A stretch of DNA of 64,000 nt from positions 6,887,315-6,951,314 of the forward strand of contig CM041199.1 of assembly GCA_023078555.1 (NCBI GenBank), in the 5' to 3' direction. Positions 4,331 through 60,434 of this stretch are shown in pieces. Position 1 is the stretch's first letter; each line of letters begins with the position of its first letter. A model generated the notes under the pieces. That model made no database searches. It saw only the letters and a list, made by a program, of their open reading frames with translations, and was not told the DNA's origin. Both the position numbers and the translations under genes were made by a program. The stretch is from Ulva prolifera. Taxonomy: Eukaryota > Chlorophyta > Ulvophyceae > Ulvales > Ulvaceae.

Positions 4331-5453
4331 GCAGAGCACAGAAACAAGTCACAGGGACGGTGGTTTAGCACGGAGGCAGAAACATTGGGGGTGATAAAGG
4401 CTCTACAGGAATGTATCAGAACATGGTGTGAAAGTGCCTCGTAGCGCACAAGGCAGGTGCACATGCGAATGCACGCACGGGGTGACACGTGGCAGACACC
4501 AGCCCGCGAATGAGAAGACACATTCCAGCTTTCTGTATAGGTCGAACAATGTCATGGCTCAAGTATCTGACTCAGATACTGACCATGCAGGTGTGATCCC
4601 AGATCTCAGGCGGCATGTGCTAAGTACTCCGCACACATACTTAACACTTCGCCCAACTAAACTTACGGTATGACGCTTCCACTCGCGCTTGCATTCGAAC
4701 AGATCCAAACAGATACCCACAGACGGTTCGGGAGCAGTCCAGGTGATCTGTGACAATCAAGGAGCGATCTCAGCTATGGCCCATATGCGCGGCAGAGGAA
4801 GAGTCTTCTTAGCAGTTGCCCAGATCTACAGACTAGCCAAGCAGCACAGCTTAGTGCTAACATTCGCATGCCAGCGCAGGACCACCAGGGCCATCACACT
4901 CGCAGACTCGTGCTCGAAGCACTCAGACCCAGGCGCCTGGAGACTGTCCAGAAGCGTGCTGGGAACGCAAATTAGGAAAACAGCAGCTGAGTGGCTCACG
5001 AAGGGATACTTCCCGCCAGAAATCGACATCATGTCTAGTAAATGGGCACACCAGGTGCCCTGCTACGTGTACGTCTCACGAGTTCTGGGACGGGAATTGC
5101 GCAGCGCTGGACGCGCTGGTTCAACCTTGGAGCAAGTGGGTTGCGGGCTCCCAGAAAAGGCCTTTTCTGCGTACGGATGGGAAACCATGCCTTTTCCTGT
5201 TCCCGCCAGCCACACTGTTGCCACAGGTGCTCATGAAATCAGGATGGAGAGACCCTGCGCATGGCTAGTGTGTTCCCAATATCTCAGAAGCATAGATCAG
5301 ACTCTGATAGCCGGCTTGCCTGTGAAGGCTCAGTTTCCATTACAATGCCGCAACGTGGCCCACATAGTGACACCGACTCCAGAAAACCCAGCCTACCACA
5401 CAGGCGAACAGTGGCACATCCTGATGCAGATAATATATGTCACATGGGACTGA
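4240..5453 (+). pseudogene. RNase H and C-terminal part of the DIRS-like polyprotein, split by an LTR
   Basis: Upstream of the LTR insertion a frame contains DTSETAKSTHVPGSRW and STEAETLGVIKALQECI, the start of an RNase H fold with its first acidic residue and an E in the following helix. After the LTR the frame resumes at 4,689 with VICDNQGAISAM (third acidic residue), ADSCSKHSDPGAWRLS and PPEIDIMSSKWAHQVPCYVY. This order (DNQ, then the SK...W block, then the ID-S segment) matches the region following RNase H in DIRS-type elements. The frame ends at 5,453. It is inactive because the LTR interrupts the domain and RT motif C is lost. Confidence 0.7.
4427..4701 (-). mobile_element. ~280-bp solo-LTR-like repeat inserted in RNase H
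   Basis: It is the reverse complement of the 19,934-20,211 copy, from TGTGAAAGTGCC to GCATTCGAACA. The 5' edge lacks three bases seen in other copies, and the flanks (CATGG and GATCC) do not form a target duplication, so one edge may have been altered after insertion. It sits between the two RNase H blocks and therefore postdates the retroelement. Confidence 0.85.
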
Positions 5454-17188: not shown

Positions 17189-17482
17189 AATGTTGTTGTG
17201 AAAGTGCCTCGTAGCGCACAAGGCAGGTGCACATGCGAATGCACGCACGGGGTCGGGGTGACACGTGGCAGTCACCAGCCCGCGAATGAGAAGACACATT
17301 CCAGCTCTCTGTATAGGTCGAACAAGGTCATGGTTCAAGAGTCTGACTCAGATACTGACCATGCAGGTGTGATCCCAGATCTCAGGCGTCATGTGCTAAG
17401 TACTCCGCACACATACTTAACATTTCGCCCAACTTACGTTATGGTATGACGCTTCCACTCGCGCTTGCATTTGAACAAATGT
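17189..17482 (-). mobile_element. Solo LTR with 5-bp target duplication (AATGT)
   Basis: The element is 17,194-17,477 (284 bp), TGTTGTGAAAGTGCC to GCATTTGAACA on the plus strand, with AATGT at 17,189-17,193 and 17,478-17,482. TG...CA ends and an exact 5-bp duplication mark it as an LTR. An internal 17-bp palindrome (GTCTGACTCAGATAC in this copy, GTATCTGACTCAGATAC in others) is conserved in the family. Confidence 0.88.
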
Positions 17483-19928: not shown

Positions 19929-20216
19929 GATGGTGTTCGAATGCAAGCGCGAGTGGAAGCGTCATACCGTAAGTTTAGTTGGGCGAAATGTTAAGTATGT
20001 GTGCGGAGTACTTAGCACATGACGCCTGGGATCTGGGATCACACCTGCATGGTCAGTATCTGAGTCAGATACTTGAGCCATGACCTTGTTCGACCTATAT
20101 AGAGAGCTGGAATGTGTCTTCTCATTCGCGGGCTGGTGACTGCCACGTGTCACCCCGTGCGTGCATTCGCATGTGCACCTGCCTTGTGCGCTACGAGGCA
20201 CTTTCACAACAGATGG
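19929..20216 (+). mobile_element. Solo LTR with 5-bp target duplication (GATGG)
   Basis: The element is 19,934-20,211 (278 bp), TGTTCGAATGCAAGCG to CACTTTCACAACA, with GATGG at 19,929-19,933 and 20,212-20,216. It is complete and serves as the reference copy of the family in this window. Confidence 0.9.
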
Positions 20217-28707: not shown

Positions 28708-28741
28708 GGTTTTCAATGCAGTATGTGTGCGGAGTACTTAG
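26132..28741 (+). CDS. Family X gene, copy B (unknown; paired with Tnp2)
   Basis: The start at ATG 26,132 has good context (CAACATGGCC). Probable exons are 26,132-26,535 (MAERQEIKVRKLTSLSILIG; donor GTACGA), 26,827-27,046, 27,156 to at most 27,600 (KARCKMDHKLSVAEDIRLAL, FKNQTVAKTAKPFRELMKKE), 27,716 to about 28,090 (GLRALFIEWTSEM, SFEFAVWG), 28,085-28,235 (GHHTVVSVLMLDCIRRFVV), and about 28,349-28,741. The last is strongly acidic, with a run of Asp from a (GAT)n tract, and ends inside a truncated LTR that supplies its final codons and stop. No catalytic motif is visible. The middle part is Lys/Glu-rich and may be helical. It is more intact than copy A, but expression is unproven. The same break of frame after FAVW occurs in both copies. 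Confidence 0.5.
28669..28707. repeat. (GAT)n microsatellite in an acidic coding frame
   Basis: About 13 uninterrupted GAT/ATG triplets that encode an Asp run in the plus-strand frame of the X-B terminal exon. Confidence 0.9.
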
Positions 28742-28937
28742 CACATGACGCCTGAGATCTGGGATCACACCTGCATGGTCAGTATCTAAGTCAGATACTT
28801 GAGCCATGACCTTGTTCGACCTATACAGAGAGCTGGAATGTGTCTTCTCATTCGCGGGCTCGTGCCTGCCACGTGTCACCCCGTGCGTGTATCCGCATGT
28901 GCACATTCCTTGTGCGCTACGAGGCACTTTCACAACA
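28721..28937 (+). mobile_element. 5'-truncated copy of the ~280-bp LTR
   Basis: It starts at GTATGTGTGCGGAG, lacking the first ~60 bases of the reference copy, and ends CACTTTCACAACA. It carries the palindrome GTATCTAAGTCAGATAC with changes. No target duplication can be assigned. Confidence 0.85.
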
Positions 28938-30309
28938 TCACGGTTGTTTCCATAGCCTATACATCATGTTGCGTCCGACTTCCGGGCTGCCCACTCACAA
29001 CCTTCATTATCGCACTTGACACACCTCCAAGTACCTGTGTCAGTCGAAGGGTCAGCATCTGTTGCTCAGTAGGCATACAAACCACGTCTTGCCAAGATGC
29101 CAACTGGGTACAACGCACCCTGAGCTCGAGTTGAGGTAGAAGTTTTCCTGGCATGTGACAAGACGGCGGGTTCCACCGGAGAACGACCAGGCGGCCCGGG
29201 TAAAACTTCACAAGATCAAGCACGCGCAGATCGGACATAGTATCTCCCTGGATCATCTAAATTTCAACGCTTTTGACACGTGCCGAAAAGCATACCAAAC
29301 GAATGATGCCAGAGCGAGGGCAGATCGAAGACTGCGGAGCGCATCTGTGACAGTTGCTATTGCAGGCTTAACAAGGCGTCTTCTCGATATCGACAGTGTA
29401 ATTTGCGTTTGACATCAGCCTATATATTGCACGGGGGAAAAGGCATGGGCACGCGGTGCATAGCTTAAGGTTGTAGACCTTGTAGCCATACTGTCGGCCA
29501 ACGAACACGTCAAAAAAGTCCGTGAAGAATCCACGCGTCCAGTCCGTACCTGACACATGGTTCAGGCATGTACCGCAGTTTCGCTCACAGCCGTTGTTCA
29601 CGTTGTTGCAGAGCATGCGCACGGATCCTGAACACAGCATTTGCAGTAGCAGCGTCACTTCTGTATCGCGCAAGACCACAGTCTAGCCGACCATCTAGCA
29701 GACCATACCGTACGCAAGTTGGTCAACACGACGGTCGGTCAGCGGAAACACAACGAGCCTAGGTGCATTCCAGAGAACGTAGCTCCCGCAGCAGGTCACC
29801 TATGTCGACCCGGGCTGGGCTGGTCCAGCATGCTCCGTCTCTGTTCCCGGATCACAACTGGTGCGTACCGATCCGGGAAGAAAAGGCCGACTTGTTCCCG
29901 GAACGAGCTGCCCAGATCACCCGGTTATCCTGACAAGGGATCCAGCCCGTACCCGGGTCACATTCTGACATAAAGTCGTTCTTGTAGTGTGTTGAGCACA
30001 TCGCACTATGGCAGGTGTCGTACACAGGCTACCTTAGTATATAAGCAACTGGACTTTAAAGGGTAGACGACAAATCTCACACTCCATGTATCTTGACTAA
30101 CAGTCTTTACACACATAACACGGCATGCATTACCTCGCCAATGCTCCATTGCGGCGGCTTCCACATGCACTTGAAAAGGTTACTCGATGTAACTCCCACA
30201 TCGCGCACGGCGACAATGCACCGAGTCGCAAAAGTGCTGTGAAACGCTGCGATTTTTTATCACGTGCGTGGGCGTAACGCTCGGAACGTTGTTGACATAT
30301 GAGGGGGTG
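28938..30309. other. No assigned gene; one Cys-rich minus-strand frame
   Basis: A minus-strand frame at 29,679-29,368 contains NNGCERNCGTCLNHVSGTDW and VGRQYGYKVYNLKLCTACPC, with protein-like composition and four Cys pairs, but no family is recognised. A plus-strand frame at 29,155-29,412 is basic. Either could be a transposon exon flanking the KDZ element. Confidence 0.3.
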
Positions 30310-30327
30310 CGGCGGTGCATTAGGAGC

Positions 30328-31096
30328 GCCTGAGGGGGGTTTTTTTTGGGCCGTTCTGGCGAGCCGCGCACAGAGCGAGCGGCTGCTGGCCGATTCGCGA
30401 GCAACTTTGTAGTGTCATGTACGTTCCAAAATAGCTGCTCGCCAACCTTGAGTGGCTCTGTCATCGATAGGCTCATAATTCGAGAGCGAGAAGTAGCTGG
30501 CGAGGCCATGTATGGCGCGAGCCAGACGTAGCGGATCAAGTTTTAGTTTACTGACAATTTAAGCTGGATAATTGCTGCTTCGCTACAGTCGTGCAGCTGT
30601 TTGCACACCTCGGCCATGTTGAGGCGGTGCAGTGATGTCCAGCGAAAGGTAAGCGACTTCGTTTCGCGGCTGGCCAATGCAACTGTAGTTTCACTTGTAA
30701 TATCTGCGGTCTGTCGTACAGCGGCCTGTGACATGATCGGCTTTCGCCTGTCCGCCAGTTGATCGTGGTCATTGTGTCTCTGGCTCACGGAATGTGATGC
30801 CTGTTGCGCTTGGCGAATCAAGCAGCAGACATCCACTTTAATTACATGTAACTTGCCAGGCCTGCGAGGCCCATGGCTGCATGCCTGCGTACCTACAGCT
30901 TGCCAAGCCAGCATGGCCCTCTGGCCCAGCCAGCAGGCAAAGCCAGACGCCTAGCCACTCCGCATGTGTGCAGCTTGAATTCCATTTGATTCCACTGCAG
31001 GTCGCTAGCCACCTTTGGAGGACTCGCTGTGGCTGTAACGGCTGTGCTTGGTATGGGCACGACGTGTCGTGCACCACAGAGGCCTCTTTTCCGCGG
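30328..31096 (+). repeat. Left terminal inverted repeat (769 bp)
   Basis: It pairs with 41,252-42,018 along its whole length, from GCCTGAGGGGGGTTTTTTTT to GAGGCCTCTTTTCCGCG. It differs by scattered substitutions and one T in the T-run. A frame on its minus strand is shared with the right repeat but carries a TAA where the right copy has TAC. Confidence 0.92.
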
Positions 31097-31469
31097 CCCC
31101 AGGCCCGCCTGTGGTCTGAGTGAGTGCCTGTATGCGTATGTGATAGCACATGGCGTAGGTTGCTGCTAGTCACTGGGGTGCAGAGTACCTATTGTCTCAT
31201 GTATGGGCACCTGGCACATGACGCCAAGGTGCAAAGTCGCTACAGTCATGCAACTTGCTGCTCGCATGTAACAGATATAAGCAGTTGATCATCCTCAACG
31301 CTATCATGCTGATTGGGTTTCGGTGGAGGGATGACTTGTGTGACACATGAGTCGATGCCACCTCATTTAATCTAGACGCACTTTTTATCAGTGTGTCTAG
31401 ATTTACAGCACAAACACTTTACACTGAGGTTCCTTGCTTGAGTCTTCGCATTCCACAGGTGTGACAATT

Positions 31470-34400
31470 TTATACAAAATGCAATGTTGGCCCAAGGGTA
31501 GAGCACGGCTGCCATCTGGTAGCTATTGGACCAGTAGCTACAACGGTAGCCTTTTGCCGCCGGCATGATCGTACATTCAGCCAGTGCACACGGAATGCGA
31601 GGAGCAGCTTTGAAGACCAGACTCCCATCATCCGCAAGGTAGGGCTGCTCGCACGAAGCTCCTTGAATGTCTGTTCAGCAATTTCCGTGTTGACCCCAAT
31701 CACAGCTTGGATCAACTCCTCCTGTTCCTCGACTTGCGGTAGGGGCCCACCAACCGCTGCGGCTGCCCCACATTGAGTTGTTTCGCCTAGTCTTTGTATT
31801 TTCTTGGGCCGTATGAACTCTCGGATCTCAACCTGCATATGCACACATGGCTCAAACCCACAAACCCTCGTCCACTGGTTCGTTCTGCATGATGCCAGCG
31901 GAACATGCACACCAGTGGTTGAAAGATAGGCAGCAACCACTGGGGCTTGCAGTTCTAACATTTTACGGTGGTTGTGTAGGGGTGGACTTACAAGGAAGAA
32001 GAGCAGGGGGGTACTGGGCGGACCTTCGACTTGGTTGAGCCGACGGTCTCCTTTCGTACTCTGAATCCAGCACGAGATCTGCGATATCCATCGCAAGCGG
32101 TGTCTCGCTTGGAGTTTGGCTCCATGTCATGGCTGTCAAGTACATGCACAATTCCATGATTTCCCCTCGGTTCGAAAGCATTGCAATTCTCCCTACATGG
32201 TGCACGGTTCAACCAACTCTGTACACGTTCAGGGCGCGCATGTGCAATATACATGAAGCCGGAACAAACCGGCAGTGGCGATCCTGGGCAGAGTGCCCTA
32301 GAAAGTGGAAGCGATCTACCCTCCACTTCAGCCCTGCCCACCGTTCGGAAAATGTTTGCAAGCTCTTGCCGAAGCAAGCTGCTAGAAAGCAGGCTCTGTC
32401 ATAAAACAAGAAATCCGGTAGTGCATAGGGGGATTCTAGGGGGAATAACTTGGTGTCAAGGAATTCTAAATTGGATGTATAGTTCTCGGGGCACTCCTGG
32501 GGATAGTAACCTTCTATTACGCCTGCGGAGCAGAACATGCAAGAGTTGATGTTGTACATGTGCAGCCAACCATTTGGGCCTGAACCATATGTGCGACACT
32601 GGGTCTGTCGAAGCGCACCACATGGGCAAACATAGAAGAAGTAGCCGATGAGGGCATTGCGGGGCACGAATTGCTTGTCATGAATCTTTTGCCAACACAA
32701 CTCACGGACCTGTTTCTCTTTTGTGCCGTTGTCTCCGGGAAGAACGTCTTCCAGCTGTGGACGCTGCCGAAACTTGAGGAGTATCGCCTGACACAATGGG
32801 TCATCACATGCAAGCGATCCCTCTTCCGCAGGATTCGCACATCGAACTCCCACCACAGGGCTATGCGAGCCTAAACGATGGAATGCAGTGGACATCGTCG
32901 CTAGACTTGATGTTGGAGACAGGCTCTTGCATGTGTCTGGCAGCGGCCGGTATGCTGCACAAGTCTTTTCGTGCTTGCTGTGTTCGTGGCAGAATCGCTT
33001 CCCAATAGCAGGCATCTTCTTGCAGTTGTATCCATGCTGGCCCTCGGAGAAAAATGTGCACTGCTGACCAGTGTAATTCTGCACACGCATTGGCATTGTT
33101 AAAAGCGTATTTTGCAGGGAAGGGTTTTTTAGCTGCATGTTATAGAACATGTAGCACAATTCAACAACGATGGGGGGCACCTCAACACCATCCATAACTA
33201 GACACTTGCTCACTGGTGCGTCATCGTGTATACGGCCTCCACAACCAGGTACATCACACGTGTGCTGGCGGTGTTCGGTGTCCACTGGTAAATAATGTTC
33301 CACAATCTCTTTTGCTGTGGCTTCTAGCCCACATCGACGATTCCCTTGTGCATCTACTCGGCTGACGACACGAACACTGCGTCCGAGTGGCCATGTTCGA
33401 GCATTGAGCAGTGTGATGATGCAATGCAATTTGAATGCTCTTGCAAATGATCTCCCTTTGCCACATGCAATGGTCGTCGGCGTCAGCCAGCCTTTGAGAT
33501 CACATTTCCCAGCGTAGATTTCTTCAAGCCTGGCAAAGGCGGGACCACCTACCATCATCTGCGGTGCATCAGGAATAGTGGCGGTGAGGCTACAAGGGAA
33601 AACTCCACACGCAGACATTATGCAGGGAGCGCACAGGCAAGTGTATCTCAGTCTCCACAAAGTTGATATGCATCCACAAATTGTCAGTGACACGCAAAAA
33701 CGCGAATGGACACGTGCTGGGACTGTTCAAAGCTTCGATCTCTGCAGCAAAGTACTCGTGCACCGTGGTGTGCTTTCCTCCTGGCGCAGCAAGAGTACGT
33801 GTTCCCCTCTCATTGGCATCTAAGTGATCGTCCATCTCGTTCTCCGCATCGTCATATGGCAGAGATTCTACGTCTGAAGCTTCTGTGCGTGTTACCACTT
33901 CGTCAGACTTGGAGAACCCTGGATATAGGGTGACTCTGCATGGTTTGCATCTCCTCTTGATCAACACGAACCTGCATGTTGCCCCACTCAACATACTTTG
34001 ATTGTTGCATCATGGACCATACAGAAAGTATCCTTCAGAGAGCACTGCAGGTCGTTAAAAGAGCACACCAGTCTGGCCGGCCGCTCTCGGTAATTACCTG
34101 GACGAGCTTGGGTGTCATGGTGCCAGCCCGTTTGACACAATGTGGGCAAGTGGATGAGAGACACTCTAGGACGGGAAAGAGCCCGAGCCGAAACTCTGGA
34201 TGATTCGCATGTTGGCACTTCTGCACCTCGGATTGCCTCATCTCGAAAATAGCGGCACACGCTAGGTTGAGGTCGCCACTCGTGCAGGGCAAGCCAGCAC
34301 TAGCGTCCCTCAATACCCCACTATAATTGATAGTTCGTAGAGCCTCTATTATGGGCGCAATGACAGACGACAATGGCGAGGTGGGTGACTGATTCTTCTG

Positions 34401-34544
34401 CACCTCCACCATGACATCGTGCACTGCTACTTGAACATGGCTGGCGGAAACAACATTTAAGTTCACTCTGACTCTTCGTAGTGGTGCGTATAGAAGGTCT
34501 AAAATTTGAAAGAGGGCGCTTGCAAGGAGTTTCTCGTCTTCCAT
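31470..34544 (-). CDS. KDZ-type transposase with CxC cysteine clusters
   Basis: It starts at ATG 34,544 (MEDEKLLASALFQILDLLY) and is spliced. The first exon carries STCPHCVKR. The next block, 33,975-33,650, has KRRCKPCRVTLYPGF. The long exon, about 33,615 to 32,285, has KCLVMDGVEVPP, a Cys/His cluster (CTFFSEGQHGYNCKKM...KRFCHEHSKHEKTCA, later CANPAEEGSLACDDPLC), then CPCGALRQTQCRTYGSG, LPDFLFYDRACFL and RVDRFHFLGHSAQDRHC. The intron after DRHC joins precisely to ENCNAFEP. The last recognised exon, 31,845 to about 31,555, has VNTEIAEQTFKELR. Order and spacing match CxC5/CxC6 proteins of KDZ transposons. The Asp of VMDG, the Asp of FYD and the Glu of IAEQ are my candidates for the catalytic acids. 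The junction of exons 1 and 2 does not resolve cleanly in frame. Confidence 0.82.
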
Positions 34545-35123
34545 TTCGACCCGGTCCGTTTAAACGAAGCGCGAGTGCGAATGAATCTATCTTCGCTAAG
34601 GTGAAGGTCGATGATCAACACACCATCAAATATTGACATTGTTGGTGTTGTACATAGCACTTGCACATGACTCAAGGCTCGAGCGTGAGGTGCTCGACAG
34701 TAGCATCGACTGCTCCGAATATGACAAGTACATGAAGACTCCGCTGCTTTATGAAAGTAGTAAATCGTTCTACAAATTGATAGCGTGATGAAACATGCAA
34801 GAGACACGGGGCTTGAACGTACACAACCCCAGTGCGTCGTTCAAGAGAGTGGCGTGAATTTTACATGGCGTAGCGATGCACTACCGAGCGTATACTATAG
34901 CTATTACTATAGCTGATTGGCGGATTGCACGGCAAAAACAATAATGTTTGCTTTGATATCATCCTTGCAAGGTCTCTCCAGTGCAACATCTGATAGATTA
35001 CAACTGCCATCTGTCTTGCCTGTGGCAGTGATTGTGCTGCAACCAGCTATCAGATACCCAACTACCAGGTTCCAGCTACCAGGGTACCAGCTATCATGTT
35101 CGGAGGTGCTGAAGGCAATGGCA
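34545..35123. other. Spacer between transposase and protease genes
   Basis: It should hold the transposase promoter and the protease 3' end, both minus strand. No motif is evident. A short internal duplication (AGCTATYA and ACCAGCTA motifs, 35,040-35,095) is the only structure. Confidence 0.4.
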
Positions 35124-37335
35124 TCATTGCGACCACATATTGAAAGGCAGTAGGCATCCAACAGCAAGCTCGAGTGCCATTTGCTTTCGCAAATGAAACG
35201 CGGTGTCTGACCCAGTAGTGAGTCCATAGGAGAAGGGACGTTTGGCAAGTATATCCTTGATGGCGAATGCGGTGCACACACCACAGTCAGACCCATCCTT
35301 CTGTTTGGGGATAGGTCCATTCAGGTGTACCGGGTTGCAATCAACCTTCCACTTGATGCTGCGTAGCCGTGTGACCGTGTGTGGTTGCAGCAGCGTTCTT
35401 TCTCGCTCCACTTCCTCAGAAAACCATTGTTTCACCCATTCAGCATGACGTATAAGACCGTTTGTATGCTTGCAAGAATCAATATACATGATTTCTTCAG
35501 TTCCTACGTCGACGACGCATAATACCTGCACACGGGCAACTGAAGGTGTACATCACGCACATTGTATTCAACTGATGTGACCACATTGTGATGCTGGACA
35601 TACCCAATGGCTGAGGTTCAGACATGCAGGGAAGATGAATCTTGAGCATGTGTCCAAAACTGGATACTTCAGTGATTCCCCTCGGCTTGTCATGTTCGGC
35701 AGCGTAAAGTAGGTCTTGAGGATCTTTACCCCGGTGTCCACTGTTCCTTCTTGATCGATCGGTTCATGGGCTTGCCATAGGCCCCTTCCGAAGTGCGTGT
35801 TGAGAAGTACAACAGTGGCCGGGATGAAATCCTCCATGCGGTTCTGCAGGAACACCTACATGTTGTGGAACAACAACCAGTAGTACCAGCAGCCCCATGG
35901 CGGCTGAGGTCGCAACTGTGCCTCAATACAAAACAGCAAGACGTAGTATGCACCCTGATGAGCACACTGTAGCAGGATATGACGCCGTCTTCTAACCAAT
36001 CACCGTTGCACAATTCTCTCATCCCGGTGCTCTGCAGGTGACATGTCGCCATGCGTTTATCTCCGATATCGATGGACCATGCGGTTTTCAGCAGCTCAAT
36101 CACTGAAGCTTGCTCCGTAGTGAGTTGCCTGCATCCACATGTCTGCGATCGTTGGGCACGTGCGTTCACACCTTCCCCAGTACACCTGGTCATGTGGGCA
36201 TTCCTTGAGTCGCAGACGCACCATGAATGTTTTTGTACCACATTCCCGTACTCCAAGAGGGACACTGGCAATGGACCCACCACGGGACTTGAACGGAGAC
36301 GTTGGATGCGGACGGTGTACCAACGAATGTGCGAGGCCGCGCGGAAGTTGTGCTTGACGCCGTGCTGTAGGCATGCCCGCATCGTTAGGCCTAGGCAAGC
36401 AACGTGCAAGCAAGTACACGTTTCCAAGGCTACTTCAGATACTCGGCACATTCGCCAAGCAGCAAGTACACGTTGGAGGGAATGGCTGTGTGCACCTTGA
36501 TGAGCGCGATGGCTCGTTCAGCGTACCGCACGCACGGATCCTGCGCTGCACAGGCGTCCTCCAAGGCTTGAGTGTAATTATGCATGTCAATAAGTCTAAA
36601 TCCTAATCCCCCTTGGTGTACTTACTCTTGTCCAGCGTGGTGTGGCGTCTCGGAGGATCGTTTGCAGTCCACAGTCCTGGACACTCGTCCCGATCAATAG
36701 ACGGTGCACCACAGCAATAGCATTGTGACAATTTGTGCACGTTGACGCCCGCTATGCTGGATCTTCAGCAGCCTACATAACTTCAAGTCGGAGGGCGTGC
36801 ATGATGTGGCGTGAGGCAGGCCAATGCTGGAGGCGCTAGTGCCCCGAGGTACAGGCACACATGCACTATGAACATATCTGCCATTGAATGGAAGGTAACA
36901 GCCATTGTCCACATCAGCTTTTGCGTTGTGTGCATGTTGAACCACGTATATGCTGGCGTGGGAGCACGAGTAGATCGCGCGACGTCTGCTCGGACCCGCG
37001 GAATTGACTCCATAGTCTTGCACGTAGCGTTCGTGGCCTTTCTCGTCACCCGATATCGACAGCTCCGATATGAATGCGTTGCAGAGATTAATGTGTACAT
37101 TGTATTCGCTATGCACCGTCACCCGATCTTGACAACTTGAACGGCACTCGGTGGTCGTGCAGCAATCAACGAGGAGGCGCACTAAGCTTAAATTCCCCTT
37201 CATCCGCCCGGAATCGGTTCGAAATGGACTGTAGACAAGGTATATCATGTTCACTCTGCCTTCGAGCCCGGGCCGGTACCTCTGAGCTGCAGTTCGCGTG
37301 CCAAGTGCTGCGCTCTTGACACTGGCAGCCCCCAT
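35124..37335 (-). CDS. Ulp1-like C48 cysteine protease of the KDZ transposon
   Basis: Five exons can be proposed: 37,335 to about 36,700 (MGAASVKSAALGTRT); about 36,595-36,434 (MHNYTQALEDACAAQDPC); 36,364-35,954 (ending MRELCNGDWLEDGVISCYSV); 35,855-35,604; and 35,525-35,124. The intron between the last two splits the catalytic His motif: LSHW joins in phase to VLCVVDVGTEEIMYIDS. With PKQKDGSDCGVCTAF this gives the C48 set His, Asp (of YIDS), Gln and Cys. WLEDGVISCY corresponds to the family's W-L-x-D-x-x-I block. C48 enzymes normally cut SUMO-like proteins. Such domains occur in several eukaryotic DNA transposons, where their role is unclear. The N-terminal exons are not recognised. It lies head-to-head with the gene at 37,518. 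Confidence 0.78.
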
Positions 37336-37517
37336 GGTCTACAGGTACCCGTGCTAGATATCTGAGACAGAAACCGGAAAAAGGTTGGTCATTTCACCAT
37401 ACCGCGCCACAGGCAGCTGAGGCCGCACGTATGTGGGCACCACTTGACAGGACACACGGGCACGAACGCCCCAACCATTCCTCGATGCCTCCCGAGCGGC
37501 ATCAAGCTCCGGTGGTC
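37336..37517. promoter_or_regulatory. Putative bidirectional promoter inside the KDZ element
   Basis: Only 182 bp separate the proposed start codons of the protease (minus) and the plus-strand gene. No TATA-like or other motif stands out. The call rests on geometry alone. Confidence 0.4.
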
Positions 37518-40500
37518 ATGACTCCACATCAGCTTGACGTTGCAATGCAGCTGGTTCGTGTGATCAGCAATGTGGGGATCCCCAAACCAAACGCCAAGTC
37601 TTACAAGGTTGGCACCCGTGTCTGCAGAGTCATCAAGCGGACCGATCACCGGTTTCAATCAAATGCTTAACACCCACGTTTAAGCTCTGTACATCAATCT
37701 TGTCTGTGAACGTTCAGGTCGGTGATGTGCGGCAGGTATTTCAAGCTCTTGTCCACGCATGTACCCATGCGGCACTCAGCCATTTGACAGTGGCACAAGT
37801 AATCGACATGTACGTACCATGATCTCCTCTGTGTTTGCCACACCTACTCAGTCAGGCCTAGGGCGACGTATCTTGATGTGCAGGGCATTCGCTATTGTAA
37901 AGCAAGCCAAGCCATGCCCAGTCCCCTGCCCATTCACTGCAACCGTGTGTTGGTCAAAATTCTGCACTCTAGCCTTGGCCTGTGAAGCTGTGGTCGGCTC
38001 TCAGGGGGCTTCGCAGCTGACCACCGAGCACCTAGGACTCCACAGTGTCGAGTCGACCCTCAGGGCTTGGGGTGCCAAGGCCACCGTTCGGGATCCAATC
38101 AAGAAGGTGTTAACTTGGGTGAAGAGCATGCCACTGCCCTGCGCTACCTTGTGCACAGAAGCACGAAAGCCGGGGGCCCCGGACGGACCACCACAGGTGC
38201 TCATCCCATCCCCCATGCTGACCGAGCATCTCACTATCTGGCATTATTTCTCTGATTGTGTGCAGGCACACACAACCAAGAGAAAGGGACCGGCTACAAT
38301 CGAGTTGCTATGGCTGCAAGATTTTATCATGGGCGAGCCGTGGTTGAGCGATGTCCTCTCGGCGAAGGCAGGTTTGAGTCCAATGCATTCTGTATGAGGT
38401 GGCCATGCACTCAAATGATGGCTGACTATGGAGTGTGGCCCACAGCGCCAGTGAGTTTAGGCCACATGCACTTCCCGTCCACGAACCTACTTTTCAGGTG
38501 GCCCTGCAGGTGAATTTGCTGGAGGCGTCGCGCGCCTAAGGCGCCGAAGCGCCTCAATGCCACTAGGCCAAGAGTTAAGGTGGTTCTACCTCAAGACTGG
38601 GCAGGAGAAGGTAGACCTCATCTTCCGGGGGTGGGAATTCCCAGCCGCTGCCCTTGTCACGCAAGCATGTGGTTCAACAGCCCAGTCAGCATACACTGCC
38701 ATGCTGGAGCTAACACACTTGTTGAAGTGGATCGAACTCTACATAAACGAGAAGGTTGACGTGCCACGCTCACTATTTCTCCGACAAGAGGTCTTGCAGA
38801 CACAAATACAGGACGCACTCAGTTCAGACGAGGTGGCACTGATCGCTCCATTCGGATTGAATACCCCAGCTAAGTTACGTCAGTCGTTGCTTGACCACAA
38901 TCGAGCAACAAAGAAGGCACTTTCAACCGAAGAGTTCCATGCCGAACAAAATCCGCCGTTGGCAGCCCGCCCCCTTGACTTTGCTTCCCTTGACTTCATG
39001 AACAGCTTCCAGCCCCCAGCCTCCCGGCTTGCCCCCTTTGACCCTCTCCAGGGCTTGCCGGATATAAACACATTCTCCAGTCCAATCTCGGGCGGCGCCT
39101 CAATACATGATGACCCATGGGGCGATGTCTCAGCTGCGCCAAGGGCCAACGCTTTAAGCGGAGTTGAAGAACAAGGCGAGGTCTTCATCACACGCGTCGA
39201 TCAAGGCACAACATTGCCAAACGTGGACTTGAGCGGAGATGCCCCGTCTGCTGAATCTGACAAGGTGCAACAATTGCTTGCATCCTTAAGCCGCATGCAA
39301 CAACGTGAAGCCACGTACCAAGATATAACACACTTGTTTGCTACGGAGCCAAAAAGGAGTGTCGATTGGTGTGTGCCCTTGTCCCCCGTGCATATATAAT
39401 GCCGCTCGTATATGCAACAATTGGCACCAGCGGCATGTGGTCAAGCCGCGAACATGTCCCAACAGCAATTGCTACGCGTACAGGTTGTCGTGTGCTATCC
39501 TAGAAAATCTCCAAATCATCGAGTCTCATCTCGCCAATGGCAGTCACACCATGGACCAGGACATCTACCACAGCTTGGAAGACAATGTCAGTAAATTTGA
39601 AGCGAAACTTAAAGTTCTACAGATTTGGATTCACGAGCAGAGAAGTTCGCTTCGCGACCTCGCTACACGTGTCCAGAGTCGCCAAGGAGCCACGGCATCT
39701 GTAGCCGCCCCTCCAACAGCGCAACCCCTAGGGGCCGCGGCAGCTGTGGCCGCCCCTCCTACAGCACAGCCCCCAGGGGCCACGGCATCTGTAGCCGCCC
39801 CTCCAACAGCGCAACCCCTAGGGGCCGCGGCAGCTGTGGCCGCCCCTCCTACAGCACAGCCCCCAGGGGCCACGGCAGCTGTGGCCGCCCCTCCTCCAGC
39901 GCAGCCCCCAGGGGCCACGGCAGCTGTGGCCGCCCCTCCAACAGCGCAGCCCCCAGGGGCCACGGCAGCTGTGGCCGCCCCTCCTACAGCGCAGCCCCCA
40001 GGGGCCGCGGCAGCTGTGGCCGCCTCTCCCACAGCGCAGCCCCTAGGGGCCGCGGCAGCTGTGGCCGCCCCTCCTACAGCGCAGCCCCCAGGGGCCGCGG
40101 CAGCTGTGGCCGCCCCTCCAATAGCGCAGCCCCCAGGGGCCACGGCAGCTGTGGCCGCCCCTCCTACAGCGCAGCCCCCAGGGGCCGCGGCAGCTGTGGC
40201 CGCCTCTCCCACAGCGCAGCCCCTAGGGGCCGCGGCAGCTGTGGCCGCCCCTCCTCCAGCGCAGCCCCCAGGGGCCACGGCAGCTGTGGCCGCCCCTCCT
40301 ACAGCGCAGCCCCCAGGGGCCACGGCAGCTGTGGCCGCCCCTCCTACAGCGCAGCCCCCAGGGGCCACGGCAGCTGTGGCCGCCCCTCCTACAGCACAGC
40401 CCCCAGGGACCACGGCAGCTGTGGCCGCCCCTCCTACAGCGCAACCCCCAATAGCCGTAGCAGCGGTGGCATCCCCTCCGGAAGTGCTGCCCCCAGGAGC

Positions 40501-40756
40501 CACCCTCGCACTCGCCGCTGCAGCTGCCCACAGTTCGGCCGACGTGTATGACATGTTTGCCGGAAATCCAGGCACAGACCTAACTTCCAATACTGAACTT
40601 GCTGCAAATGCACTCGCAGCCATGAAAGATGATAGGACTGATGCCATAAGCGGAAGGAAGAAACGTCCCTTACCCACCCCGACTGCACGCAATGGCCCGT
40701 CACAAGAGTTGAGGCGAGGCACCAGAGAACGCAGGCGGAAGCTCCCAGGGGCATAG
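37518..40756 (+). CDS. KDZ-transposon accessory gene W with 15-residue Ala/Pro repeats
   Basis: It is spliced. Exon 1 is 37,518-37,607 (MTPHQLDVAMQLVRVISNVG) and exon 2 is 37,718-37,809 (VGDVRQVFQALVHACTHAAL, donor GTACGT). An exon after the CAG at about 37,855 continues in phase (PRATYLDVQGIRYCKASQAM), then an exon ends near 38,196 (TEARKPGAPDGPPQ, donor GTGCTC). A large block spans about 38,557-39,330 (LRWFYLKTGQEKVDLIFRGW, ELTHLLKWIELYINEKVDV). The last exon runs from about 39,500 to 40,756. That exon has a short helical stretch (VSKFEAKLKVLQIWIHEQRS), eighteen 15-residue repeats, and a basic end (RRGTRERRRKLPGA). No enzyme motif is visible. Location between the TIRs and protein-like exons argue that it is a functional transposon gene, perhaps DNA-binding or structural. 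Confidence 0.6.
39686..40495 (+). repeat. 45-bp coding minisatellite, 18 units
   Basis: Each 45-bp unit encodes a variant of GATAAVAAPPTAQPP. Seventeen units are well conserved and the eighteenth (IAVAAVASPPEVLPP) is diverged. Reading frame is kept throughout and most changes alter single residues (T/A, T/P, P/L). Length variation between copies or strains is likely. Confidence 0.95.
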
Positions 40757-41251
40757 TAGTTGCCAGGGATGTGCCCCGCCTACTCGAAGCCTCCACACGC
40801 ACATTTACTGTGGGAGAACCATGTGTGACTGCTTATATGCATGTTAACTAGGACAGCCACATTGGGCTCCAGAGAAGACGAAGGCTGCAAACACCACCGG
40901 TGTATGTATGGCACATAATTGTTGTTCTTATGAATGCATTCCACTTTCGAGGTTTACATTTGAAAATGACCCGGGCTGCCTAGACTACAACATGTCCCAT
41001 TGATCGTTCCATTGCATGTTCCCATTATGTGTTCCATTGCATGCCCACGTTATGTTAACATCATCTCCCAAACGCACAGGCGTTTGGTGTGCATGTGTGA
41101 ATGTGATGTCGATACATAGATCCAAGTTATTACAGCAGCGCAGCACGGGTCTCCATGGGTCCACAAATTTAGGCGCAGTTCTTCACTGCGGTTGCATGTA
41201 TACAGCAGCGGTATGTAATAAGCTAACCTAGGCCAATAGCGGCCCGAGAGG
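40757..41251. other. 3' region of gene W up to the right TIR
   Basis: No gene is seen. It probably contains the W 3' untranslated region. Short GTTCCATTGCATG repeats occur near 41,005-41,045. Confidence 0.4.
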
Positions 41252-42018
41252 CGCGGAAAAGAGGCCTCTGTGGTGCACGACACGTCGTGCCCATACCAAG
41301 CACAGCCGTTACAGCCACAGCGAGTCCTCCAAAGGTGGCTAGCGACCTGCAGTGGAATCAAATGGAATTCAAGCTGCACACATGCGGACTGGCTAGGCGT
41401 CTGGCTTTGCCTGCTGGCTGAGCCACATGGCCATGCTGGCTTGGCAAGCTGTAGGTACGCAGGCATGCAGCCATGGGCCTTGCAGGCCTGGCAAGTTACA
41501 TGTAATTAAATTTGATGTCTGCTGCTTGATTCGCCAAGCGCAACAGGCATCACATTCCGTGAGCCAGAGACACAATGACCACGATCAACTGGCGGACAGG
41601 CGAAAGCCGATCATGTCACAGGCCGCTGTACGACAGACCGCAGATATGACAAGTGAAACTACAGTTGCATTGGCCAGCCGCGAAACGAAGTCGCTTACCT
41701 TTCGCTGGACATCACTGCACCGCCTCAACATGGCCGAGGTGTGCAAACAGCTGCACGACTGTAGCGAAGCAGCAATTATCCAGCTTAAATTGTCAGTAAA
41801 CTACAACTTGATCCGCTACGTCTGGCTCGCGCCATACATGGCCTCGCCAGCTACTTCCCGCTCTCGAATTATGAGCCTATCGATGACAGAGCCACTCAAG
41901 GTTGGCGAGCAGCGCCTTTGGAACGTACATGACACTACAAAGTTGCTCGCGAATCGGCTAGGAGCCGCTCGCTCTGTGCGCGGCTCGCCAGAACGGCCCA
42001 AAAAAACCCCCCTCAGGC
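41252..42018 (-). repeat. Right terminal inverted repeat (767 bp)
   Basis: Inverted partner of 30,328-31,096. Its plus strand holds a 205-codon frame (41,427-42,044; includes ETTVALASRETKSLTFRWTS and RYVWLAPYMASPATSRSRIM). In the left repeat the same frame is cut by TAC to TAA. Whether this frame is translated is unknown. Confidence 0.92.
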
Positions 42019-42036
42019 ACATGTACACCGGCGGTG

Positions 42037-43212
42037 GGGCCTAAAACTCTTGCACCGGGAACGTGAGCACCTCAGGCCCAATAGCGCCGAAACAGTCTAC
42101 AGGTTAATCGCAATTTATTGCTTGGCAATCGCAATTTATTGCTTGGCATCACCCGAAGGTCGCTGGGTAAAACGCTGGAGAGCGGCCAGAAAAGGCCAAC
42201 TTTGCCGAAAGAAACCTGCCCATTCTGTCCGGAACGTCGCCAGGGACATGCACACTGTTGTTCAATGGGCTGTCAACAAAACACTATCGTATGCAACGCT
42301 GGTGTTCAGTGGTTTACCTCCCGGTGTAAGTGCTGTGCAACACCACCTCGTTGCGCGACCGCGTCGAGTGTAGGTCCTCATACCGGACATTTGCGCGGAA
42401 TGCACACGCTGGAACTCTCAAGGCGGCACTGCGAGCGTATGTCACGAAACGGGAATTTCGAAGAGCAAAACGTCATTGGTTGTTGTCGCGAAAGCACTGC
42501 GTCGGGCATTTCCACCTGCCTCCAGTGAACAAATCATCGTCCAACATTCCAGCGCAAGCTAGGTGCTCCGGGTGAAAACAAGGCATCTATGTGATTTCCC
42601 AGACAGCATCTAGATAGCTGCTCAGTCTGAAGTGTGTACCTGGCATGGTATCAAAATCGTGCACGTGCTGACAGCCATCTCATGTCTCGAGTCGTCAATA
42701 AATGAACGGCTGTGTCTAAGTGATTTGTTTGCGACAGCTCATCACAAGTCAAGCTGAAGGCTAGGTGTCGCGTAACTCTGTGGGCTTTCACAATTGCGGC
42801 TGCATAACCTCGATTGCAACGAGTTCCTGGTTCGAGGCATGCATGTGCGCAAGCTACCAGAGGCAAGCCTGTTGACACGGAGTGGCGAAGCGGTGGTTGA
42901 CTGGCTGCGCTGACCGCTTTTGGTGCATTTGCTCTTGTACATGTCAAGACGCTTTGTGAAAACGCCATGGGCGGTGAGTAAAGGATGGGGGACACGCATT
43001 AGTTGTAAGCTCTTGCACTGCTCTGCCCACAATGCCTCTCTTGTTTCCATAATTGATATCCCCATACTCTACCTCCGCATTCAATAGAAACTCTAACCTT
43101 GCATTTGGTAAAACCGCTGAATGCGGGGTCACATTTGCGATGCAGCGATGATTGCCACAGCTACACCCAACGCCCCCACGTACCCATAACGAATATTTTG
43201 CTGTAAAATGTG
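42037..43212. other. Flank of the KDZ element; Cys-rich frame and small tandem repeat
   Basis: ATCGCAATTTATTGCTTGGC is present twice in tandem at 42,106-42,147. A plus-strand frame at 42,118-42,528 has many Cys (ETCPFCPERRQGHAHCC, then MGCQQ and CKCCATPPRC) but no recognised family. On the minus strand, 43,065-42,900 reads protein-like (EALWAEQCKSLQLMRVPHPL) and could be a 3' exon of the SAM-domain gene. None of these is certain. Confidence 0.3.
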
Positions 43213-59400: not shown

Positions 59401-60378
59401 CGAGCGTTGGCGCATCACATATGCACACCCACATGTGCTTTGCAAGCTGCTGCCTACCCTGTGACCACGGCTCGCTGGTGCCATGGCGGGTGTCCATTGT
59501 TCCTACATGGGGGTTTGCAGTGTTGTCCGGGCAGTTTTCCGAGATGGTGTGAGCCGGCGAAGAGAGCGCGGAGGGTGGCATGCATGGGGCTGGTACGCAG
59601 CGGGCCTTTGCGGCTGGGGGTGAACTGGCAATGGTGCCGCATATGCACATGCTTGACGGCACGCCTGCCTGTCTGTCTGTCTGTTCGAGACGTATGTGAA
59701 ATGAAGGCAATGTAGAAGTGCACATTCGGGGAAGCACGTGGTCCCTGGCAGGTGTTTACTTTGGATGGAGCCGTAGCAGCAGTTTGGCTTGCCTGCCCCA
59801 GAGATCACAGGTGGAAGTGCCGAAGCTGCCACCAGGCCCACAGCCTGGCACGGTCGTGCAGCAGCTGTACATCCCACGCTCACAGCACCTTTTGAGAAAC
59901 AGGTGAGCATGTATTCATCAGCTGCACTGTTTCGGCCTGATGTGTGTCGCGCGCGGCTCCATGGATTTCTGGATTCGATCTGAGCCCGTACCAGGAGCGC
60001 CGCGCGATTGCATGCAGATAGCAAAGACGCAGGTGGCGGGGCTGCTCAAGCAGACCAAGATTGGGCCGGCCGTCGACTTTGATGTGCTTCTGCTGTCGCT
60101 CGTGCACGAGTTCATGCTCGGGGAGTGCCCGTGCCAGCCGTGGGCGGCGCCGCGCCGCATCACCGATGGCCGCCTGCCCGCCCTCACCAACCTCGGCGGT
60201 GCCGCGCTCACCCGCACCGGCATCACCGCCTCCGGTGCGCACCCCTCAGCCACACTCACCCGCACCGGCATCACCGCCTCCGGTGCGCACCCCTCAGCCA
60301 CACTCACCCGCACCGGCATCGCCGCCTCCGGTGCGCACCCCTCAGCCACACTCACCCGCACCGGCATCACCGCCTCCG

Positions 60379-60434
<56 letters not shown>

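Follow-up and report, generated by a model that had tools for sequence, protein, structure and literature searches.

The closest described systems for the transposable element presented here, located in a stretch of 64,000 nucleotides of the Ulva prolifera genome (assembly GCA_023078555.1, contig CM041199.1, positions 6,887,315 to 6,951,314; hereafter the window), are the KDZ transposons. In Cryptococcus neoformans, the mobile elements KDZ1–3 have a size of approximately 9–11 kb, paired terminal inverted repeats (TIRs) of 139–241 bp, a CxC zinc cluster (CxC1) accompanying the transposase, and target-site duplications (TSDs) of 8 bp for KDZ1 and of 4–8 bp for KDZ2 and KDZ3 (PMC12810828). TSDs of 8 bp are also described for Zisupton and Dileera (PMC12730594); together with Kyakuja, these groups feature a large multi-exon transposase and, in fungi, accessory genes of the TET/JBP type, and two Laccaria families of Kyakuja have 7-bp TSDs and no TIRs (PMC12730594, PMC9297572). 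Among algae, giant KDZ elements with additional genes occur in brown algae (Ectocarpus; PMC12477816) and active KDZ elements in Chlamydomonas (PMC10828217). SUMO and ubiquitin proteases recur in unrelated transposons and have been proposed to take part in transposition; Ulp1/C48 protease domains are carried by Mutator and Ginger1 elements, in Ginger1 as the C-terminus of an integrase-type transposase (PMC2836005).

Window positions 30318–42028 (11,711 bp) constitute a complete DNA transposon, and two near-identical copies on different contigs show that it was copied recently. Paired TIRs, an 8-bp TSD, the near-identical second copy, a diverged third copy with the same genes and the constraint on three genes support the reading of a complete, recently copied cut-and-paste transposon with a transposase most likely of KDZ type; to the extent that the gene models can tell, the copy in the window (copy A) has an intact structure. 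We consider this reading probable. Like KDZ1–3, copy A combines a size of this order with paired TIRs, an 8-bp TSD, a candidate CxC zinc cluster associated with the transposase, and mobility, but its TIRs measure approximately 0.8 kb, its putative cluster is CxC6-like rather than CxC1, and it carries an Ulp1 protease and a third gene, W, neither of which is named in the accessible text on the Cryptococcus elements (PMC12810828). With Zisupton, Dileera and Kyakuja it has the large multi-exon transposase and the presence of accessory genes in common, and with the first two also the TSD length; in contrast, copy A gives no match to the KDZ profile, its accessory genes encode a SUMO-type protease and W instead of TET/JBP, and it differs from the two Laccaria families in TSD length and in having TIRs (PMC12730594, PMC9297572). 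The elements of Ectocarpus and Chlamydomonas are likewise from algal hosts, large, equipped with additional genes and recently active; copy A is characterized by three defined genes and TIRs of approximately 0.8 kb (PMC12477816, PMC10828217). The Ulp1/C48 domain is shared with Mutator and Ginger1, but here the protease has a spliced gene of its own, next to a transposase of another kind (PMC2836005). In the accessible portions of the literature searched, no link of a KDZ transposase to Ulp1 or another protease was found, nor one of Zisupton to Ulp1. What is new, as far as this literature shows, is that a KDZ-like transposase occurs together with an Ulp1 protease encoded separately, with W and with TIRs of approximately 0.8 kb. 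Judged by its anatomy, copy A would work like a KDZ element, and its membership in this group is most likely.

The genome searched comprised 88.9 Mb in 44 contigs, with the window located on contig C4 (6887315–6951314). It gave 38 matches to chlorophyll a/b-binding proteins, counting each exon, as would be expected of a photosynthetic alga or a relative; for one of them, close solved structures exist among LHC proteins, with 9vfj as the best chain and 6kac, from Chlamydomonas, also scoring high. When the copies were aligned, the element started with CATTAGG at 30318 and finished with GTACAC at 42028, and between 29000 and 43500 a single pair of inverted repeats stood out (arms 30335–31124 and 41223–42012, 790 nt, 96% complementary). 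Extended to the outermost bases, the left TIR occupies 30318–31124 on the plus strand, and the right TIR, with GTGTACATG as its outermost bases, 41223–42028 on the minus strand. Over their best-aligned 768 nt, the two arms are 97.9% identical, so that the near-identical 768-bp inverted repeats claimed in an earlier note on this DNA were confirmed. The borders given there, 30310–42036, proved to be exact to the base and run from TSD to TSD, as the exact 8-bp duplication CGGCGGTG is found at 30310–30317 and 42029–42036. Chance can be dismissed as the origin of the repeat pair: counting its own two arms, the TIR query hits at least 36 places genome-wide, and these include a second copy of full length and a further full but diverged one. 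Both ends were matched by the end patterns in five of the eight elements tested, and exact 8-bp TSDs were present in four of these five, namely CGGCGGTG in copy A, TGTTTACG in the diverged copy C, GTAAAGTG in locus L013 and TACGCTGG in locus L015. Two further candidate features of the element ends were rejected: subterminal repeat arrays as binding sites, because the repeats were no more numerous than in 15 shuffles, and an outward gene encoded by the TIR (ORF 41397–42044, plus strand), because a stop interrupts it in the left arms of copies A and B. In addition, 21 TIRs of relatives were inspected, and their longest outward frames measured 68–117 aa.

A genome search for further copies, proposed in the earlier note, returned one full copy on contig C7 (copy B) and one diverged full copy on contig C2 (copy C). 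Copy B aligns with A from end to end and differs by three indels of 45 bp, one of 2 bp and 38 substitutions, 10 of them outside a 45-bp tandem array and 28 within it, the latter count possibly being inflated by the alignment around the 45-bp indels. Outside the array, two coding changes were found in the transposase, three in W and none in the protease; all five are non-synonymous, and so few changes permit no inference. Copy C (C2:894900–908700, loci L019 and L020) has a DNA identity to A of 66–79% depending on the stretch (79% over 30318–34581, 66% in W) and contains all three genes in the same order. Thus, each of the three long elements carries the complete gene set, with the protease of C being broken by an insertion. 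Queries with W and the protease matched only in these three elements; fragments of the transposase are additionally present on contigs C3 (fragment D), C1 (fragment E) and C8 (fragment F).

The three spliced genes that had been claimed previously were recovered in copy A. Splice sites were selected by comparison with C, and with D and E where present, and synonymous and non-synonymous changes were then counted between A and C. All 14 predicted introns of A follow GT...AG, and all three reading frames are open. The ratio of non-synonymous to synonymous change (dN/dS) was 0.10–0.39 in 15 of the 16 exons with a computable value, compared with 0.51–3.1 in shifted frames. The exceptions are protease exon 2 (0.76, shifted frame 0.86) and W exon 5, where synonymous sites are saturated (proportions of changed synonymous and non-synonymous sites, pS and pN, of 0.80 and 0.20, taken from the part before the repeats only). 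As judged from this comparison, the three predicted genes are under purifying selection. According to the gene models, the protease and W are transcribed outward and divergently from a common upstream region of approximately 0.85 kb (36586–37430), which may act as a two-way promoter, and the transposase gene, which shares the strand of the protease, lies downstream of it.

The transposase gene consists of seven exons on the minus strand and encodes 835 aa, 80% identical to the protein of C. Exon 1 with the start codon (34069–34544) and exon 2 (33635–33995) both show a dN/dS of 0.27 and are joined by an uncertain junction; they are followed by exon 3 (33181–33558, dN/dS 0.21), exon 4 with a CxC6-like cysteine cluster (32571–33078, 0.10), exon 5 with the motifs FLFYDRAC and VDRFH (32270–32522, 0.17), exon 6 (32024–32192, 0.17), and exon 7 with the motif NTEIAEQ, a candidate catalytic Glu and the stop (31470–31832, 0.19). 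Shifted frames gave 0.74–2.4. A single long exon (32209–33726) was rejected, as C and E go out of frame unless the introns 33180–33079 and 32570–32523 are removed. The motifs YDRAC, VDRFH and TEIAEQ are conserved in A, C and D, and the order of VDRFH..H..C..C before NTEIAEQ..L..M..N is probably that of KDZ transposases. The earlier assignment to a CxC-type KDZ transposase stands in part. With introns removed, the isolated exon 4 matches CxC6 with E = 3.2e-4 in A and 1.5e-4 in C (21–22 bits against a cut-off of 27.5), and none of eight shuffles matches; the two scores are not independent, since the exons are homologous. No match to CxC5 appeared in the Pfam scans of the transposase, nor did any model of a Mutator-like element (MULE), hAT, CACTA or other transposase at E ≤ 10, and its profile found nothing in the PDB. 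Six-frame genome searches with the KDZ and CxC6 models gave no matches, but are uninformative, as the control genomes likewise gave none. The transposase is most likely of KDZ type, which is plausible and not proven; since the KDZ profile was tested and remained unmatched, the element is not classed as a proven KDZ member.

For the protease, the earlier assignment to family and active site proved correct. Its five exons on the minus strand encode 349 aa: exon 1 with the start codon (36496–36585, dN/dS 0.39), the weakly constrained exon 2 (36222–36364), exon 3 with WLEDGVI, where the C48 match begins (35954–36128, 0.21), exon 4 with the catalytic His at its end in ..SHW (35604–35843, 0.26), and exon 5 with the other three residues of the C48 set (Asp, Gln, Cys) and the stop (35124–35525, 0.34, counted over the 121 codons that follow the insertion in C). 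Shifted frames reached 0.79–3.1. Once spliced, the protein matches Pfam C48 (PF02902) with E = 1.2e-8 and 35.5 bits against a cut-off of 20.7, covering profile positions 1–189 of 217, and its His-Asp-Gln-Cys set (SHW, YIDS, PKQKDGSDCG) aligns with SENP1. The nearest solved chains are yeast Ulp1 and SENP1/2, with weak scores (E 0.005–0.01). By profile and active-site set, the predicted protein is a C48/Ulp1 enzyme. Elsewhere in the genome, 11 of 19 C48 matches fall in ORFs of two lengths, five of 162 aa (C1:9451411, C1:10283960, C3:2095036, C7:6279909, C35:9042) and six of 154 aa on C1, C2, C6 and C7, which probably represent other repeat families with Ulp1-like proteases; the exons of the element itself were below the threshold of that unspliced search.

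W is encoded on the plus strand by five exons (962 aa) and is characterized by Ala/Pro-rich 15-aa repeats and a basic C-terminal tail. Exon 1 contains the start codon (37431–37607, dN/dS 0.39) and is followed by exon 2 (37718–37809, 0.33), exon 3, which may contain another short intron (37884–38371, 0.37), exon 4 (38510–39368, 0.32), and exon 5 with a conserved start, the repeats, the basic C-terminus and the stop (39484–40756); shifted frames gave 0.51–3.1. The repeats correspond to a 45-bp tandem array of 18.2 copies (39685–40503), in which A and B differ by 45-bp indels. In C, W is free of stops across the first four exons and the beginning of the fifth. It is treated as one gene because W and the repeat-rich ORF can be spliced together in frame with a donor and an acceptor that occur in A as well as in C; the initial model of two genes, with W ending at the stop at 39397–39399, was set aside and is not favoured. 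As the earlier note had it, W belongs to no known family, with no Pfam match at a meaningful E-value (best 0.068, in C), no PHROG and no solved chain in the PDB.

Sequence was also read around TIR matches other than those of A, B, C and D, namely in 15 stretches (L011–L018, L021–L026 and L028), several of them covered on one side only. They correspond to 14 loci, as L016 and L017 are one TIR. None of these loci has DNA similarity to positions 31130–40270 of A at E ≤ 1e-5, and a genome-wide search with the transposase ORF 32209–33726 matched none of them; they are probably non-autonomous relatives. Among these, L011, L012, L014 and L015 align with L013 at about 91–93% over most of the fetched length. 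The five are approximately 7 kb each, their TIRs are approximately 77–79% identical to those of A, and both of their ends share some 1.4–1.8 kb with the right end of A, including the tail of W (the second end of L012 being partly covered). TIRs enclosing only some of the genes, which the earlier note would have counted against its proposal, were found only in these five relatives, where no transposase was detectable. They do not contradict it, since relatives without a transposase are ordinary for DNA transposons, and A, B and C each carry all three genes. More distant TIR relatives with 65–73% identity lie on contig C9 (9747–20660, 216932–227845 and 1281623–1291268). In the first two, a plus and a minus TIR match are approximately 10.9 kb apart with identical scores, which raises the question of a duplicated segment. 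C9 has no match to the transposase query, and its TIR relatives are possibly a further long lineage.

For the proposed mechanism, the 835-aa transposase would bind the TIRs, cut via a D-D-E core and insert the element at a cut with an 8-bp stagger. Possible substrates of the Ulp1-like protease, from which it could strip SUMO or a similar modifier, are the transposase, W and host chromatin or repair proteins at the site. W, with its repeats and its basic tail, may serve as a nuclear accessory protein with a scaffold or DNA-binding role. For the relatives lacking a transposase, mobilization in trans by this enzyme or ones related to it is probable.

Several results weigh against this reading. 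Regarding mobility, the TSD of copy B is imperfect, its flanks sharing in register only the five bases TAAGC, and the search for an empty site was unsuccessful in this assembly, where the query of joined flanks matched only the two flanks themselves. With regard to the gene models, all splice sites are predictions from the DNA sequence. C lacks an AG at the exon 6 acceptor, where A and D have one, and at the position of the exon 2 acceptor of A; as the exon 1–2 junction fails in C, exon 1 could be a gene in its own right. One of the substitutions of B outside the array changes the predicted exon 7 acceptor from AG in A to AA, and hence either B yields no full transposase or that exon border is wrong. 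This defect leaves our assessment unchanged, because it rests on copy A and the A–C comparison. In C, an insertion splits the last protease exon; its direct terminal repeats of approximately 0.3 kb, its TG...CA ends and a short GATAT duplication give it the appearance of a small LTR (TRIM-like) element. Concerning the classification, the KDZ model PF18758 was absent at E ≤ 10 from single-sequence scans of the spliced A protein, of core pieces of A and C and of four short cores; the filters of these scans drop most matches above E of approximately 0.1, so that the loss of a distant KDZ member is possible. CxC6 stays below its curated cut-off, with E = 0.38 on the unspliced ORF and, on whole-protein models, E = 6.4 with two introns still included and 2.4 for the whole 835 aa. 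No transposase relative was confirmed in viral or GTDB contigs and no W relative in viral contigs, collections that hardly sample eukaryotes. Finally, a structure model of W exon 4, based on a two-row alignment, reached a pLDDT of only 42.7 and was not used for a fold search, which makes the role of W a guess.

What the accessory genes contribute can be read in two ways. Tentatively, the element may belong to a KDZ-related lineage too distant for the KDZ profile, with a SUMO protease of its own and a W protein specific to the lineage as working transposition parts of a conserved three-gene module. Alternatively, and to be regarded with similar reserve, it may be an ordinary KDZ-like transposon that took up the protease and W as host genes, carried as passive cargo with no part in transposition. 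Additional genes are indeed described for giant KDZ elements of algae and fungi (PMC12477816), and protease exon 2 is hardly constrained. However, the three genes keep their order and constraint in two lineages that have diverged to a DNA identity of 66–79% over the stretches that match, and a query with W exon 4 has no matches elsewhere in the genome.

A transposase of a non-KDZ superfamily, such as that of a MULE, would be compatible with the architecture alone, as MULEs have long TIRs and TSDs of about 8–11 bp and captured Ulp1 proteases occur there. However, no MULE, hAT, CACTA or other transposase model appeared at E ≤ 10, the sole transposon-linked match being CxC6, and the motif order FLFYDRAC – VDRFH..H..C – NTEIAEQ..L..M..N is presumably that of KDZ. 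Even with the published Ulp1 domains of Mutator and Ginger1 elements (PMC2836005), and TIRs of approximately 0.8 kb that exceed the 139–241 bp of the Cryptococcus KDZ elements (PMC12810828), this origin appears improbable. A new superfamily sharing only a CxC6-like zinc cluster with KDZ is equally hard to credit: PF18758 remains unmatched (single sequences, four short cores) while CxC6 matches weakly, but KDZ groups are too diverged to be aligned without trimming (PMC12730594), single-sequence scans lose distant members, and TSD length, element size and the exon-rich gene fit KDZ.

Outside the element, the left half of the window contains direct and inverted copies of a sequence of approximately 60–280 bp (654–768, 4424–4701, 17194–17480, 19934–20211 and 28720–28940), mostly 92–100% alike. 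They form another repeat family and are perhaps the ends of another transposon. An ORF on the plus strand at 4674–5450 contains the stretch VICDNQGAISAM, which resembles a retroelement RNase H motif; it has no Pfam match at E ≤ 0.1. At 60207–60434, a 48-bp tandem repeat of 3.8 copies leads into 53 consecutive C.

This most likely KDZ-type element of Ulva prolifera encodes its Ulp1 protease in a gene of its own, was copied recently and probably has non-autonomous relatives in the same genome, which makes it possible to ask whether that protease is needed for movement.

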